Source: a virus
IMG/VR virus record: IMGVR_UViG_3300010885_047022
Location: 1 to 64,000 of that record
Reading direction: 5' to 3' (one strand)
DNA: 64,000 bases
The notes below the pieces were generated by a model. The model did not search any database. It was not told where the DNA came from and saw only the letters and a program-made list of their open reading frames with translations. Both the position numbers and the translations under genes were made by a program. Below are positions 4,609-24,324 of the stretch, in pieces (position 1 is the first letter of the stretch; every line of letters begins with the position of its first letter).

Positions 4609-4702
4609 TGGCGGAGAGAGTGGGATTTGAACCCACGGATGTATTTTACCACATCGACATCTTAGCAGGATGTTCCATTCAACCGTACTCTGGCACCTCT
4701 CC
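4609..4702 (-). tRNA. tRNA-Ser (anticodon GCT), CCA encoded
   Basis: Read on the complement: a 7-bp acceptor stem (GGAGAGG with TCTCTCC, one G.U pair), discriminator G and an encoded CCA; an anticodon stem ACATC/GATGT with loop CTGCTAA, so anticodon GCT; a long type II variable arm (about 18 nt, GATG..CATC stem); and a T arm GTGGG-TTCAAAT-CCCAC. The long variable arm and GCT anticodon identify a serine tRNA reading AGC and AGT. It lies between the exonuclease and the RmlD-like gene and is the only tRNA seen in the window. Confidence 0.95.
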
Positions 4703-12082: not shown

Positions 12083-12598
12083 TTAGTAGGTACTAAAATC
12101 CGATTCCAGGTAGGAACCTTTTTCTTCTCTAAACGCAGCTACTTGCATGGACTGCATTTTGTCCATCAGCTTTCTAGCTGATTCTGATGCTATTCTAGCT
12201 GACGTTTCCATCGATTCAGCTAGGCTCATAATTGCCTCACAGGTAATCATTTCGGTATGTTGTGATTCAGCTGCTGCCATGGCTGAAGCTTCTCTTTCAG
12301 CTTCATTTTTTCCGGCTCTATTTGATTTATAAACTCTCTTATAATTACCTTCTATAATCTTATATTGTGCTCTAGACATTCCGGCAAAGCGCGCTGCTCT
12401 ACCATAAACATTAGATGTGCGGGCAACAAGTGACGCAATCGTATCTATTCCTAGATCTATAATATCAACCTCTGGAATTTCTACAAAATATTTACTATTT
12501 TTTTCTACGTCAGCATATGCTTCGATAACCTCTTTTAATTGAGGTCCAAGAAAATTCTGCAATAGTTCTTGCAATTTTTCCATTGATTGTAAGTTCAT
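12083..12598 (-). CDS. Helical hypothetical protein downstream of the sigma factor
   Basis: This 171-residue protein is almost entirely helical, with an Ala/Glu/Ser-rich C-terminal half (EREASAMAAAESQHTEMITCEAIMSLAES) likely to form a long coiled coil, and a basic centre (YGRAARFAGMSRAQYKIIEGNYKRVYKSN). The start is coupled to the sigma-factor stop (TAATG) with GGAGAA upstream. Tight coupling suggests a partner of the sigma factor or a recombination/replication accessory, but no family match supports this. Confidence 0.65.
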   Translation of the reverse strand: MNLQSMEKLQELLQNFLGPQLKEVIEAYADVEKNSKYFVEIPEVDIIDLGIDTIASLVARTSNVYGRAARFAGMSRAQYKIIEGNYKRVYKSNRAGKNEAEREASAMAAAESQHTEMITCEAIMSLAESMETSARIASESARKLMDKMQSMQVAAFREEKGSYLESDFSTY

Positions 12599-13458
12599 TA
12601 ATTTTTCTCCATATTAATTAGCATTGCGTATTCATTGAGATCATTTTCTAAGATTAAATCTTTTACTTTATTTTTAATTTTAGATAAGTGCTCTCTAACT
12701 GTATTCGGATGTTCATTAACTTTCTGAGATATTTCGCTGGACCTTTGCCCATCTACGTACCTCCATTTTAGAAGCTGTCTTTCTTGCACTGTTAGTCTAT
12801 CAAATGGTGGAATGTTTTTCTCGCCCAAAACCCAAAATTCATCAATTTTATCTGCAGCTAATAATTGTTCCATACTATACTCTACCGGATCTGCCTTAAA
12901 ACCAATGACATAATTTTCATCACCTTCATCATTGGTGGCATCGTCGTCCAGCAATGGGAAAGTTTTTCTGCCTAATTGATCAATGAGGAATGTATCTACA
13001 TTCTTTTTTAAAAGATAAAAGAAATAACTATATAAAAAACCGCTAAAAGGAATTGGACCCTTAGCTGAATCCTTCCTTTCGTATCTGCCTATGCATTGGA
13101 AGAAAGTCATGTATACAGTCTGCCTAATGTCTTCTTCATCCCCATATCTTTTCGCCATATAATGAATACCTCTCATGCATTCATTTATTACTCGCATATT
13201 GGATCCACTCATTTTATTTTTCATCAGAGCAAAGCGTGTTCCTGAATCCTTGATGAACAAAGAAATAAACCTTCGTATGTCATAGTCGTTCAAATTGAAC
13301 TTTCCATAATATAATAGTGAAATATATTTAGTTAAAAAATTACTGAATACCTTTAATAATTCTTCTTGTGCTTTTGCTGAACCCTTTTTGGCCTTAGCGA
13401 TTAGGTCTTGCATTTCATTCTCTTCTAAAGAGTAATATTGCTCCTTGTAAGCTGTCAT
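12598..13458 (-). CDS. Sigma-70-family RNA polymerase sigma factor
   Basis: The 286 residues show a helical N-terminal part with region-2-like EDIRQTVYMTFFQCIGRYERKD...FSGFLYSYFFYLLKK (residues about 110-155) and a C-terminal region 4 HTH, LTVQERQLLKWRYVDGQRSSEISQKVNEHPNTVREHLSKIKNKVKDLI (split here only by reading; residues about 222-269). A long insert separates the regions. It should direct host RNA polymerase to phage promoters, most likely late ones. It overlaps the upstream nuclease gene by 4 bases and is driven by the same TTGCAT-17-TATAAT promoter at 14055-14083, which fits an early host-read gene. Confidence 0.8.
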   Translation of the reverse strand: MTAYKEQYYSLEENEMQDLIAKAKKGSAKAQEELLKVFSNFLTKYISLLYYGKFNLNDYDIRRFISLFIKDSGTRFALMKNKMSGSNMRVINECMRGIHYMAKRYGDEEDIRQTVYMTFFQCIGRYERKDSAKGPIPFSGFLYSYFFYLLKKNVDTFLIDQLGRKTFPLLDDDATNDEGDENYVIGFKADPVEYSMEQLLAADKIDEFWVLGEKNIPPFDRLTVQERQLLKWRYVDGQRSSEISQKVNEHPNTVREHLSKIKNKVKDLILENDLNEYAMLINMEKN

Positions 13459-14021
13459 TTTTTACCTTCCCAGTTAACTATGTACTGACTATAAAAAACC
13501 TTTATGTCTTCGTAGAAGACAATTTGAGGAACTTCTATCTCAGCCATAAAATTCTTTGCGTCGTTTGAGTACTTACTTATGACGCATGTCATTTTTTCGA
13601 ATTCATCAGGATAATACCTTTTAAATCTTTTTAATTTAATTTTACTTTTATCATCTAGATAGCCCTTAATCTCTACCCATTCACCATTTCGTTCTAGAAA
13701 AAAGTCAGGAGTATAACCCTTTGTTCCTCTTTTTATTGGGAAAGAAAAAACAGTAGGTTCAAATTTAAATTCTATTTTATAAATATTTAGGATTCTAACA
13801 AAGTTAGCTTCCCAGCTGGATCTAACATTGAGTTCTATATCTTTCCTGAATCCAGTTTTAGTGTATTGGTACGCATTGCCCTTTTTCCTTGCAAAGACCC
13901 CATCATCCTCTAGGATTACTTTATCGATCTGCTTGTTTCTGATGTTATTCAAATTAGGTTGTTTTTTAAAAGAAGATTTTTCCAAAAAAAAGTCTTCTGC
14001 CTTGACAACATGTAGTTCCAT
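13455..14021 (-). CDS. PD-(D/E)XK nuclease-like protein (VSR/TnsA-type)
   Basis: From the ATG at 14021 (AAGGA nine bases upstream) the protein has 188 residues. RSSWEANFVRIL supplies the first Glu, GYTPDFFLERNGEWVEIKGYLD supplies the Asp and the E-x-K pair, and KLKRFKRYYPDE follows: a compact PD-(D/E)XK nuclease as found in VSR, TnsA and many phage endonucleases. It is the first gene behind the leftward promoter at 14055-14083, so an early DNA-processing or host-DNA-attacking function is possible. An upstream in-frame ATG at 14063 falls on the promoter and has no ribosome site. Confidence 0.75.
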   Translation of the reverse strand: MELHVVKAEDFFLEKSSFKKQPNLNNIRNKQIDKVILEDDGVFARKKGNAYQYTKTGFRKDIELNVRSSWEANFVRILNIYKIEFKFEPTVFSFPIKRGTKGYTPDFFLERNGEWVEIKGYLDDKSKIKLKRFKRYYPDEFEKMTCVISKYSNDAKNFMAEIEVPQIVFYEDIKVFYSQYIVNWEGKK

Positions 14022-14054: not shown

Positions 14055-14083
14055 ATTATACACTAAAAAATAAAAATATGCAA
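14055..14083 (-). promoter_or_regulatory. Leftward sigma70-type promoter (TTGCAT-17-TATAAT)
   Basis: On the complement TTGCAT (14083-14078) and TATAAT (14060-14055) are separated by exactly 17 bases. It drives the nuclease and sigma-factor operon, with about 25 bases of leader before the AAGGA ribosome site. The -35 box is the mirror image of the -35 box of the rightward promoter six bases away. Confidence 0.75.
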
Positions 14084-14089
14084 AACAAC

Positions 14090-14118
14090 TTGCATTACCA
14101 CTAAGAAGGAAGTATACT
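14090..14118 (+). promoter_or_regulatory. Rightward sigma70-type promoter (TTGCAT-17-TATACT)
   Basis: TTGCAT at 14090-14095 and TATACT at 14113-14118 are separated by 17 bases. The -10 box ends only 7 bases before the ATG at 14126, so transcription should start at or next to the start codon, giving a leaderless mRNA. With the leftward -35 it forms the palindrome ATGCAA-6-TTGCAT. Confidence 0.75.
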
Positions 14119-14125
14119 AATCACC

Positions 14126-14290
14126 ATGAACACATTAACACACATCATCAACACAGCAATTGAAACCATTGACAACGAAATTATCGAGGACTTGGTTGTA
14201 GACCTTGGTTATGACTACGGCGATGCCGTCAAGGTAGTCACAGAGTTCAATGATTTCGATTTTGCTATCGATTCAGATTCAACTTTCTGA
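14126..14290 (+). CDS. Tiny acidic protein, only plus-strand gene, probably leaderless
   Basis: The frame encodes 54 residues (MNTLTHIINTAIETIDNEII...) with at least fourteen Asp/Glu and a single Lys, so it is strongly acidic, with a helical N-terminal half and a DFDFAIDSDSTF tail. It is framed by a canonical promoter ending 7 bases upstream and an intrinsic terminator 31 bases downstream, which is why I take it as real despite its size. An AAGGAAG lies 13 bases before the ATG, too far for normal use and inside the promoter spacer. It should be made at once by host polymerase; a host-takeover factor or DNA mimic is a reasonable guess, not a result. A longer complement-strand frame overlapping it has no support. 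Confidence 0.8.
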   Translation: MNTLTHIINTAIETIDNEIIEDLVVDLGYDYGDAVKVVTEFNDFDFAIDSDSTF

Positions 14291-14320
14291 TTCTTTTTTT
14301 TAAAAACTACGTATAGAATT

Positions 14321-14351
14321 GGGGCTGGGAAACCAGCCCCTTTTCTATTTT
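14321..14351 (+). terminator. Rho-independent terminator (GNRA loop)
   Basis: GGGGCTGG-GAAA-CCAGCCCC at 14321-14340 followed by TTTTCTATTTT: an 8-bp GC-rich stem with a GAAA tetraloop and T-rich tail ending the plus-strand gene. Read leftward the stem is followed by AATTCTATA, so it may also end the converging transcript from 14345-15148. Confidence 0.9.
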
Positions 14352-15148
14352 CCATAACTATTCTTTTTATTTCTAAAAACACCTGTTGGACACGCACCTG
14401 ATTTAGCGTGATCGCAATAAGAGCATACTCTGGTATTAGCGGTGGGTGTAAAATTCTGATCAACCATTATTTTTTGAATAGTATCAATCAGTTTATTCTT
14501 AACTTCTTCAATATCTTCTTCGGTAAAAAGATGACCTTTTCTTTTTCCAGATCTTAAATAATACAACTCCGCATAGATTTCTTTTTCTGGAAATATATTA
14601 TGAAGTGCAAGAGCGTATATACCGAGCTGTAGATTAGAGTGCACGTGTTTCTGTGCAACTTCCCATTTACCCGTTTTATAGTCTGTTATGTTAACTCTAT
14701 CTCCAATAATGTCAACTCTATCTATAAAGCCAATTATCTTGTATGACCCTATAATAAAAGAAAAAGACATTTCCTTATCGTATATGGAGAATTCTTTATC
14801 TACATTTTGATCATAAAATTCATTCAATATAATTGATCCAACGGAAATAAGATCTGGAGTTATTTCTTGATTTGGATCCCAAATAGGAATATTATTTTTG
14901 TATTCTTCCTGAAGTTCATTTAAGTCTAAGACTTTATTATTCTCTAAAGTATTTTCAAGAACAGCGTGGACGATATTTCCTAGAGCAGCTGGCGCATTGA
15001 ACTGTCTTGGTTCTTTCTTAATATAAGAGTAGAAGTATCTTGCCGGACATTGATCGTATGTATCTATTCTAGAGTATGAAAAATCTACTAAACTTAATTT
15101 TTCTAAATCACTTAAGCTATCATAATTTTTAATTAATATAGAACTCAA
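14345..15148 (-). CDS. Cas4/RecB-type PD-(D/E)XK exonuclease with Fe-S cysteines
   Basis: The 267 residues carry SYSRIDTYDQCPARYFY (Cys34), LGNIVHAVLEN (His61), IIGFIDRVDII (Asp143) and VNITDYKTGKWE (Asp156, Lys158), then a QLGIYALAL helix and a C-terminal CSYCDHAKSGAC (Cys242, Cys245, Cys253). The four cysteines fit a 4Fe-4S cluster as in Cas4, AddB and MGME1-like nucleases. The active site is complete, so it should be an active DNA end-resecting nuclease. It is the last gene of the leftward replication operon and meets the plus-strand gene's terminator. Confidence 0.85.
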   Translation of the reverse strand: MSSILIKNYDSLSDLEKLSLVDFSYSRIDTYDQCPARYFYSYIKKEPRQFNAPAALGNIVHAVLENTLENNKVLDLNELQEEYKNNIPIWDPNQEITPDLISVGSIILNEFYDQNVDKEFSIYDKEMSFSFIIGSYKIIGFIDRVDIIGDRVNITDYKTGKWEVAQKHVHSNLQLGIYALALHNIFPEKEIYAELYYLRSGKRKGHLFTEEDIEEVKNKLIDTIQKIMVDQNFTPTANTRVCSYCDHAKSGACPTGVFRNKKNSYGK

Positions 15149-15156
15149 AAATATTC

Positions 15157-15324
15157 CTACTGTTCTTCGTTGGGATCGTATATTAATCGACCATTTTCAT
15201 CGAATTCTCTTCCGATTTCATCTATAGTGTGATTATTAAGTTTATTTATATAAGCGCCCTGGCCGATTGCTACCCAACCAGTTTCACCTATTTCCATATG
15301 ATCGTCTTCTTCATAGGGCCACAT
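15157..15324 (-). CDS. Hypothetical acidic protein, 55 residues
   Basis: Start 15324, stop 15157-15159. The product begins MWPYEEDDHMEIGETGWV and ends GRLIYDPNEEQ, with a central GQGAYINKLNNHTIDEIGREF. GGAGG lies 6 bases before the ATG, and the gene overlaps the upstream one by 14 bases, which supports its reality. No family recognised. Confidence 0.75.
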   Translation of the reverse strand: MWPYEEDDHMEIGETGWVAIGQGAYINKLNNHTIDEIGREFDENGRLIYDPNEEQ

Positions 15325-22229: not shown

Positions 22230-23689
22230 TAGTCAAAACCTTCTCCACTTAATAGTTCTTGAAGATCTGTTGACTCTGAATATGATTGATCACTAATGAC
22301 TTCATAATCTTCATAGATTTTTTTTGCATCGTTATATCTTACTAAAGGTGGATCGTACATGAATGCAGAACCAGTAATTCTATTTTTAGGTATTTGAAGC
22401 TGCATTATATTTTCATCTTCTGTTTCATCATTTGAAGCCAAACGTTTTTCTGTAATGAAAATTGTAACTGCGCACTTTTGCTGAATAGCTAAAGATCCAC
22501 CTGTATCTGATTGCTGTACAACTTCTCTTTTTTCTTTCATTCTGTTTGAGTTTTCCTGGGCAGTTATGATCATAGCGCAGTTCATATCTCTGGCAAGTTT
22601 TTCTAGTCTAACCATCATTTCTTCAAACTCGCCCCATCTTGGCTTGCCCTTACCACTACCACGGGTAAACATAGATTGAATAGTGTCAATGATAACTACA
22701 TCTGGCATATCTCCAGTGTGACCTATTAAATCTCTTAACCAAAACTCAAGGTCTTCAAAATATGGAGTCTCAGGATCATGACGAACCATTAATCTGTCTC
22801 CCCACTCTTCAAGTTTTGATTTAAACTTAGCCAAGTAAAACTGCTTTTTTTCTTCACTCCATTTATGAGCTTCTGAATAAACATTTTCACCAATGATTTG
22901 AGTCATAAGAATTCTCTCCCAGTGACCCAAAGCTTCTTCAAAGTTTACATACAAAACTCTATAACCAGTATCTAACCAATTATTAGCTAGACACTTAGCG
23001 AAGGTACTTTTTCCCTTGCCTGAGGGGGCGATAATTGCGTGTACAGCGCCCTTGAAGAATCCACCCTCATCCGTATAGCCCATGGCTCTATTTAGAGCTT
23101 TAAATTGCGTTGGCACGAAGTCAGGTATATCCAGCAAACGATCAGCTCTATTTAGAATGTCATTAGCTGTAGTTAATTTACTAAATGGGTCGTATTTAAT
23201 TTGATTTTCAAGATCTTTAATTAAAGAAGTTAAATCATTAATGCGATCAATATCTTCTTGTGATTTCAAACCTTTTTTATTAATAAGTATTTGAAGTTCT
23301 TGAAGATTGAGAATCTGTTTACGCTTATTTGCCTTGTGTTTGATTAATTCAACGACTGATTCTTTTGTAGAAGAATCCAGACTAAGAATATAATCTATCA
23401 TTATTCCTACGCCGGAAGAGCCACCAAGTGCATCATATATATCCGTCTCACTAGACAGCCATGATTTAAATGCTATTGGATCAACTATATCTAAATTAGT
23501 TGCTCGATAAAAACCAAGAAGCGCACCATAGAATTCGTGGATTCCTTTTTCGCCATGAATCATACCAACTATATCTTGTGGAAGATTTTCGTCAAAATAG
23601 GATATCGCACCCTGCTCTTTTAGGCAAAGTGCGAATGCCTGGTATTCTAGTGGGGTTTCTTGTGATTCTTCTATTTCTTCAAGTGCCAT
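22229..23689 (-). CDS. dnaB: DnaB-like replicative helicase
   Basis: From the ATG at 23689 (TGATG) the protein has 486 residues. The N-terminal helical domain (about 1-130) matches the DnaB N-domain; a linker helix precedes the RecA-like motor with Walker A IIAPSGKGKSTFAKCLA near 220-236, Walker B DVVIIDTIQSMF, AMIITAQENSNRMKEKR (motif 3) and SLAIQQKCAVTIFITEKR with a following KNRITG (motif 4 and arginine finger). It unwinds DNA as a hexamer at the fork. It lies in the same operon as primase and polymerase. An in-frame TTG one codon upstream is the only other start. Confidence 0.9.
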   Translation of the reverse strand: MALEEIEESQETPLEYQAFALCLKEQGAISYFDENLPQDIVGMIHGEKGIHEFYGALLGFYRATNLDIVDPIAFKSWLSSETDIYDALGGSSGVGIMIDYILSLDSSTKESVVELIKHKANKRKQILNLQELQILINKKGLKSQEDIDRINDLTSLIKDLENQIKYDPFSKLTTANDILNRADRLLDIPDFVPTQFKALNRAMGYTDEGGFFKGAVHAIIAPSGKGKSTFAKCLANNWLDTGYRVLYVNFEEALGHWERILMTQIIGENVYSEAHKWSEEKKQFYLAKFKSKLEEWGDRLMVRHDPETPYFEDLEFWLRDLIGHTGDMPDVVIIDTIQSMFTRGSGKGKPRWGEFEEMMVRLEKLARDMNCAMIITAQENSNRMKEKREVVQQSDTGGSLAIQQKCAVTIFITEKRLASNDETEDENIMQLQIPKNRITGSAFMYDPPLVRYNDAKKIYEDYEVISDQSYSESTDLQELLSGEGFD

Positions 23690-24324
23690 CAATTTTTAGA
23701 GCCTTTTAGTTTGCGGTAAAGATTCTTTTTATACTCTGAATTTTTCTTTTTCATTTCCTGATAATAATTAGAAGTTGTAATACTTTGCTTATTATTATCT
23801 TTCTTGCTATCTGGACTACTCCTAATAGCTTCCAGCATCCTATTATACACGCTAACTTCAGTTAGAGAGTCATTATAGCGAAAAACAATTAACGCAATTC
23901 CATTATCCTTGCACCATTGTGCTTTGATTATATCTCTTTTTTGTGCTTCTTCAAATTCATATTTTGATTCAAAAAATCTAGACGTGTAAAAGAAATGTTG
24001 ACGGCCATGATATTCTGCAGCTATTCCATACGAAGGGCAATAAACATCTAATCGAAGTTTTTCGCCAATATGAAATTCATTAACTACATCTTCTCCAGGC
24101 AAAAGTTTTTTCATTATCATTGTCAAAGCGGTTTGACCACGTGACATTTTCTTTTTAGAATCTTTTAACCAATTTAATCCAAGATAATTAATCTTTTTAT
24201 TTATCTCAGATATTGGAACGTCAAGTTCTTTTGCTATTTGATTTATTGAATAATTAGTATCAAATAAAAGATCTACTAAAAATTCAATATCATCATCTTG
24301 TATTTTTTTATAATTATCTTTCAT
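23689..24324 (-). CDS. HTH plus VSR/DUF559-like endonuclease
   Basis: The 211-residue protein has an N-terminal helix-turn-helix segment (DTNYSINQIAKELDVPISEINKKINYLGL) and a nuclease core LRLDVYCPSYGIAAEYHGRQHFFYT, in which the Asp and the E-Y-H-x-x-Q-H pattern fits VSR- or DUF559-like PD-(D/E)XK enzymes, followed by DIIKAQWCKDNGIALIVFRY. The C-terminus is basic and disordered. The combination is also common in phage homing-type endonucleases. It directly precedes the helicase gene with a one-base overlap. Role: DNA repair, recombination or mobile nuclease, not decided. Confidence 0.7.
   Translation of the reverse strand: MKDNYKKIQDDDIEFLVDLLFDTNYSINQIAKELDVPISEINKKINYLGLNWLKDSKKKMSRGQTALTMIMKKLLPGEDVVNEFHIGEKLRLDVYCPSYGIAAEYHGRQHFFYTSRFFESKYEFEEAQKRDIIKAQWCKDNGIALIVFRYNDSLTEVSVYNRMLEAIRSSPDSKKDNNKQSITTSNYYQEMKKKNSEYKKNLYRKLKGSKN

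Follow-up and report, generated by a model that had tools for sequence, protein, structure and literature searches.

The window analysed here, 64 kb from the start of an IMG/VR virus record of 126,136 bases (G000), contains a rightward gene for a small acidic protein. This gene lies among replication genes and has a promoter and a terminator of its own (Table 1). Its divergent neighbour is a resolvase-like gene, which matches Pfam Phage_endo_I below the cut-off and has a proper Shine-Dalgarno sequence of its own (AAGGAT), and its convergent neighbour encodes a PD-(D/E)XK exonuclease. The gene order dNMP kinase-RNase H-p68-p171-sigma-resolvase, small gene, PD-(D/E)XK-p55-p87-p121-DnaE was kept in every relative checked, with the small gene always placed between the resolvase and PD-(D/E)XK genes. 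The initial annotation had singled out the nearness of the small gene to the sigma factor gene, a proximity which is shared by all genes of this fixed replication module and thus indicates no special link. Its statement that everything else runs leftward holds for the convincing genes of the window, but not for the whole record, in which recA and two small acidic genes form a rightward operon outside the window at 123,807-125,509 (loci L021/L022), preceded by TTGCTC-17-TATAAT at 123,533-123,561. Within the window we additionally observed another small protein that is conserved and very acidic, encoded in the DnaE operon (15,157-15,324, minus strand; 55 aa, net charge -11), a tRNA-Ser (GCT) gene (4,609-4,702, minus strand) and an HNH/homing-endonuclease-like gene (23,689-24,324, minus strand) beside a DnaB-like helicase gene, while the Rfam search of the window matched nothing.

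Table 1 Features of the small-gene locus, with positions in the 64-kb window.
Feature	Position	Strand	Basis
Sigma-factor-like gene, leftward operon	12598..13458	-	sigma-70 region 4, E 9e-6; phrog_1740, E 1e-7
Holliday-junction resolvase/endonuclease I-like gene, divergent neighbour	13455..14021	-	phrog_9019, E 2e-15
Sigma-70-type promoter of the resolvase/sigma operon, TTGCAT-17-TATAAT	14055..14083	-	conserved box spacing
Dyad ATGCAA-AACAAC-TTGCAT, centred at -39.5 relative to the ATG; candidate operator, alternatively a leftward terminator	14078..14095		dyad scan
Rightward promoter TTGCAT-17-TATACT, predicted start 14125/14126, at the ATG	14090..14118	+	reading of the sequence; conserved boxes and spacing
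Gene for 54-aa acidic protein, orphan family	14126..14290	+	homologue family, dN/dS, AlphaFold2, terminal Phe
Intrinsic terminator hairpin GGGGCTGG-GAAA-CCAGCCCC with T-rich tail	14321..14340	+	fold z -7.3
PD-(D/E)XK (RecB/Cas4-like) exonuclease gene, convergent neighbour	14345..15148	-	PF12705, E 3e-31

The small gene is a real and conserved gene, whose translation reads MNTLTHIINTAIETIDNEIIEDLVVDLGYDYGDAVKVVTEFNDFDFAIDSDSTF. The predicted length of 54 residues and the single Lys were confirmed by this translation, whereas the number of Asp and Glu residues is 13 and not at least 14 as first counted; even so, this is the most acidic of the 124 predicted ORFs of the record. Copies 80-100% identical to the protein are encoded by 17 IMG/VR loci, and a search seeded with the resolvase retrieved 68 loci at 71-100% identity, in nearly all of which, given enough sequence, the corresponding position is taken by a small acidic ORF in divergent orientation. 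Counting the more distant members added by profile search, whose source contigs reach 210 kb, homologues were found at this position in about 100 loci of related viruses, and each of the 12 records searched for copy number contained exactly one. The initial annotation had staked its reading on conservation of the frame in related phages, and the frame is indeed conserved: substitutions fall mostly at third codon positions and the median dN/dS is about 0.06 (mostly 0.03-0.14; 0.34 for one close pair), so that, judged by its substitution pattern, the gene is protein-coding and under purifying selection. At the same time it drifts faster than its surroundings, its identity falling to about 50% in comparisons in which most neighbours retain 56-90%, as would be expected for an interaction partner.

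The own promoter and terminator, together with the opposite orientation, would also fit a selfish or moron-type insertion without a role in the phage core, and one locus (L068) lacks the gene, its promoter joining straight to the end of the PD-(D/E)XK gene. We consider such an insertion very unlikely, since all other relatives with sufficient sequence have the gene in this place, down to about 56% resolvase identity; furthermore, searches of GTDB cellular genomes, and of GenBank and isolate phages by both DNA and protein, returned no homologue. In L068 the promoter is kept around 1,931-2,043 and the end of the PD-(D/E)XK gene appears to be cut as well, and this single contig possibly reflects either a real deletion, in which case the small gene is perhaps dispensable, or a misassembly.

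Two divergent promoters of the form TTGCAT-17-TATAAT/TATACT can be read directly from the sequence, as originally described. In the rightward one the -35 box (14,090-14,095) is followed after 17 nt by the -10 box (14,113-14,118) and after a further 7 nt by the ATG at 14,126. A loose version of this arrangement (TTG-N19..21-TANANT-N5..8-ATG) occurs eight times on both strands of the 126 kb by pattern alone, so that a single site proves nothing and the case rests on conservation. Aligning 19 upstream clusters on the ATG without gaps placed the -10 box at -13 to -8 in 17 of them, with a one-base shift in L086, and both the boxes and the spacing between -10 and ATG (5-9 nt) are kept in 18 of 19, L069 being the exception. 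The TTG lies 17-18 nt farther up from the -10 box, while the intervening spacer and a purine-rich stretch drift. This stretch is at least 13 bases away from the ATG, too distant for a Shine-Dalgarno sequence, and at 4-10 nt no such sequence was found in the window and 17 other clusters (18 of 19 in total), the remaining one, L069, having AAAGG. The kept spacing and the missing usable Shine-Dalgarno sequence together lend good support to the leaderless reading proposed initially, and we predict that the small gene is probably expressed from a leaderless mRNA. This mode of expression would not be universal in the family, because L069-L071 carry AAAGG at Shine-Dalgarno distance without a matching promoter, and because L080-L085 have ATT in place of the conserved start codon, their -10 box overlapping an ATG in the same frame (TATAATG). 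As the ATT is present in two haplotypes, it does not go back to one sequencing error.

In Actinobacteria over 20% of genes are leaderless and recognised by a TA signal (Zheng et al. 2011, PMC3160421). The small gene resembles these in its TA-rich -10 box about 10 nt before the ATG and in having no Shine-Dalgarno sequence, but differs from them in being a phage gene and the sole clear case found in this record. Actinobacterial hosts are also indicated by the gene content, since a WhiB gene occurs in each of the five relatives that reach at least 190 kb and the DnaE is similar to that of Streptomyces phages; the carriers of the cassette are thus probably a family of large, uncultured bacteriophages of actinobacterial hosts.

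Downstream of the frame, the expected terminator with a GAAA loop was found as a strong hairpin followed by TTTTCTATTTT, which folds far better than shuffled sequences. Each of the 19 clusters has this hairpin, its loop varying in sequence, and in L009/L099 a T-A pair is replaced by C-G in a compensatory manner. The earlier view of a self-contained, separately expressed unit is supported.

The leftward promoter (-35 at 14,083-14,078, -10 at 14,060-14,055) shares its -35 box with the left arm of a palindrome, and ATGCAA-N2..12-TTGCAT occurs only once in the 126 kb. Across relatives, a TTG-N3 box is found 17 nt from TATAAT/TATACT in 17 of 19 upstream clusters. The symmetry is beyond chance (Fisher p 2e-5): scanning all possible dyad centres in the 19 clusters gave -39.5 from the ATG as the single best position (z 3.95), and arms match better within than between clusters (0 of 5000 permutations, a test in which relatedness is not fully removed). 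Arm pairs are specific to lineages, namely ATGCAA/TTGCAT, TCACAAC/GTTGTGA, GCTACAAC/GTTGTAGC and TGCAAC/GTTGCA. The initial annotation had described the palindrome as formed by the two -35 boxes, which is true for the window and its nearest relatives (L106), where the left arm doubles as the leftward -35. Elsewhere the dyad stays with the rightward promoter, and most other clusters have a leftward TTG-N3-17-TATAAT with its -35 box outside the dyad, for which reason we rejected the idea that the palindrome merely consists of two -35 boxes. Six of the 19 clusters have no dyad, and on a resolvase tree with few well-supported forks it is absent from the outgroup L126/L135/L140 and from L108, L122 and L069. 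In a group without the -39.5 dyad (L054, L057, L074 and relatives), the leftward -10 box, upstream of the resolvase gene, lies between the halves of an inverted repeat, ATCAAGATA...TATCTTGAT.

Based on these patterns, the dyad is most likely a putative operator that overlaps the rightward -35 box. Alternatively, leftward transcripts arriving from the upstream operon might form an RNA hairpin at the dyad and be terminated before they reach the resolvase/sigma promoter. The minus strand would form a 7-bp hairpin followed by AUUUUUAUUUUUU (fold z -2.2), every cluster has an A-rich tract to the left of the dyad, and no leftward terminator was seen at 14,321-14,340; however, the arms in the window hold only two G-C pairs, the U-tract is not adjacent to the stem in L080 and L134, and L039, L086 and L134 have A-C as the outer mismatch when read on the minus strand. 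Moreover, the A-tract persists in lineages without the dyad, and the distance of the dyad is fixed relative to the rightward -35 box and not to the leftward -10 box. We regard this alternative as possible, though less likely than not.

The encoded protein is predicted to form an alpha hairpin with a disordered acidic tail: both AlphaFold2 models show helices at residues 3-26 and 31-42/43 (mean pLDDT 80 and 74). Searches of Pfam, PHROGs, PDB sequences and BFVD, as well as Foldseek, gave nothing significant and only likenesses of the helix-LG-helix type, a short helix-turn-helix resemblance to HU/IHF, UBA and ACP, of which the small protein has neither the HU arm nor the ACP serine nor the third UBA helix. 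Membership in the HU/IHF family was rejected (no Pfam match, hhalign P 0.07 for HU-beta, protein too short for the arm), as were an acyl carrier protein, where the LGxDSL position reads DYG, DHQ, NHG and similar, and an SSB protein, given that no OB fold or PF00436 match was found in Pfam and that the models are helical.

A sigma-like gene in the divergent operon would be a natural partner for a small co-activator or anti-sigma factor with a role like that of gp33 or AsiA, redirecting RNA polymerase together with the phage sigma factor. The small protein is acidic and helical like T4 gp33 and shares a helix-GM-helix stretch with it; one member weakly matches the Pfam late-transcription coactivator PF16805 (E 0.12), and hhalign aligns 22 residues to T4 gp33 (P 0.012). 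However, comparable scores were obtained for the controls IHF-alpha (P 0.008) and ACP (P 0.038), so that the helix-LG-helix match is generic and allows no family assignment; in addition, T4 gp33 has 112 aa and a C-terminus reading NTLDFLL, and the sigma gene is no nearer than other genes of the module. We therefore rejected membership in the PF16805 family, which is matched by a single member and not above IHF-alpha, and regard a role as transcription partner as unlikely.

The earlier suggestion of a DNA mimic, which would block a host DNA-binding, restriction or nucleoid protein, received no specific support and appears quite improbable. While the record's most acidic composition speaks for it, no homology to known mimics was found, the structural models match none of them either, much of the charge lies in the tail predicted to be disordered, and the acidic positions are not strictly conserved. 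What is conserved are hydrophobic residues and the end of the protein: in an alignment of 22 sequences, the three invariant residues are Ala34, Phe41 and the C-terminal Phe.

This last residue is Phe in all 19 distinct tails while the neighbouring residues vary (...DSDSTF in the window), and among ten neighbouring genes only dNMP kinase (Ala) is equally constant at its C-terminus. Next to this, p171 (171 aa, 12,083-12,598, minus strand) always ends in Tyr or Phe across relatives (SDFSTY, DYSTF). A C-terminal Phe on an acidic disordered tail, as found here, is what characterises SSB-tail-like docking proteins. The SSB of larger relatives ends in Phe as well (SVPDEF or SIPSSF), no SSB being seen in G000, which is a fragment, and T7 gp2.5 ends in DEDGDF, with a terminal Phe described as functionally required in a reference cited in PMC9917605. 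In contrast to SSB and gp2.5, the small protein carries its flexible acidic tail on a helical hairpin instead of an OB fold and shows no DIPF consensus, and its Pro, where present, is usually one residue farther from the end than in SSB. The invariant final Phe suggests docking on a replication or repair protein, and in view of the Phe-ended phage SSBs and T7 gp2.5 we propose the SSB-tail pocket as the docking site. This is the best mechanism we can offer, drawn by analogy from a short motif, and we hold it as possible while judging it more probably wrong than right; action by protein-protein contact of any kind is more likely.

Taken together, we read the cassette as a conserved stand-alone unit of large, uncultured, probably actinobacterial phages. 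A host-type RNA polymerase would start at or next to the ATG and produce one short, leaderless message before stopping at the hairpin, and this message would give rise to an acidic protein of 54-68 aa, a helical hairpin with a flexible acidic tail and Phe always last. The terminal Phe and the acidic residues would fill a pocket of the SSB-tail-binding type, and a host or phage protein with such a pocket, be it a polymerase, helicase, nuclease or repair factor, would thereby be blocked or recruited; the dyad at -39.5 would most likely be bound by a dimeric regulator tuning the rightward promoter. Early expression and a role in host takeover are plausible candidates for the small protein. As a whole, this explanation of a leaderless unit with a Phe-ended docking protein and a dyad-binding regulator falls somewhat short of an even chance in our estimation, and its more specific form, a free-standing SSB-tail decoy made early and leaderless under a fast-evolving dyad operator whose arms change in step, seems unlikely.

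The kinds of parts in this cassette are already known, whereas the libraries searched contain no description of the protein family. The locus thus adds an undescribed, conserved family of mini-proteins from uncultured phages, of a type which gene callers may miss, and the dyad with its co-varying arms provides a natural series for finding its regulator. Docking through a terminal Phe represents a simple and testable mechanism: a decoy of this kind, if true, would recruit or disable replication and repair enzymes that depend on SSB, and in Actinobacteria the small protein would then offer a natural means, compact in size, of inhibiting or recruiting them.
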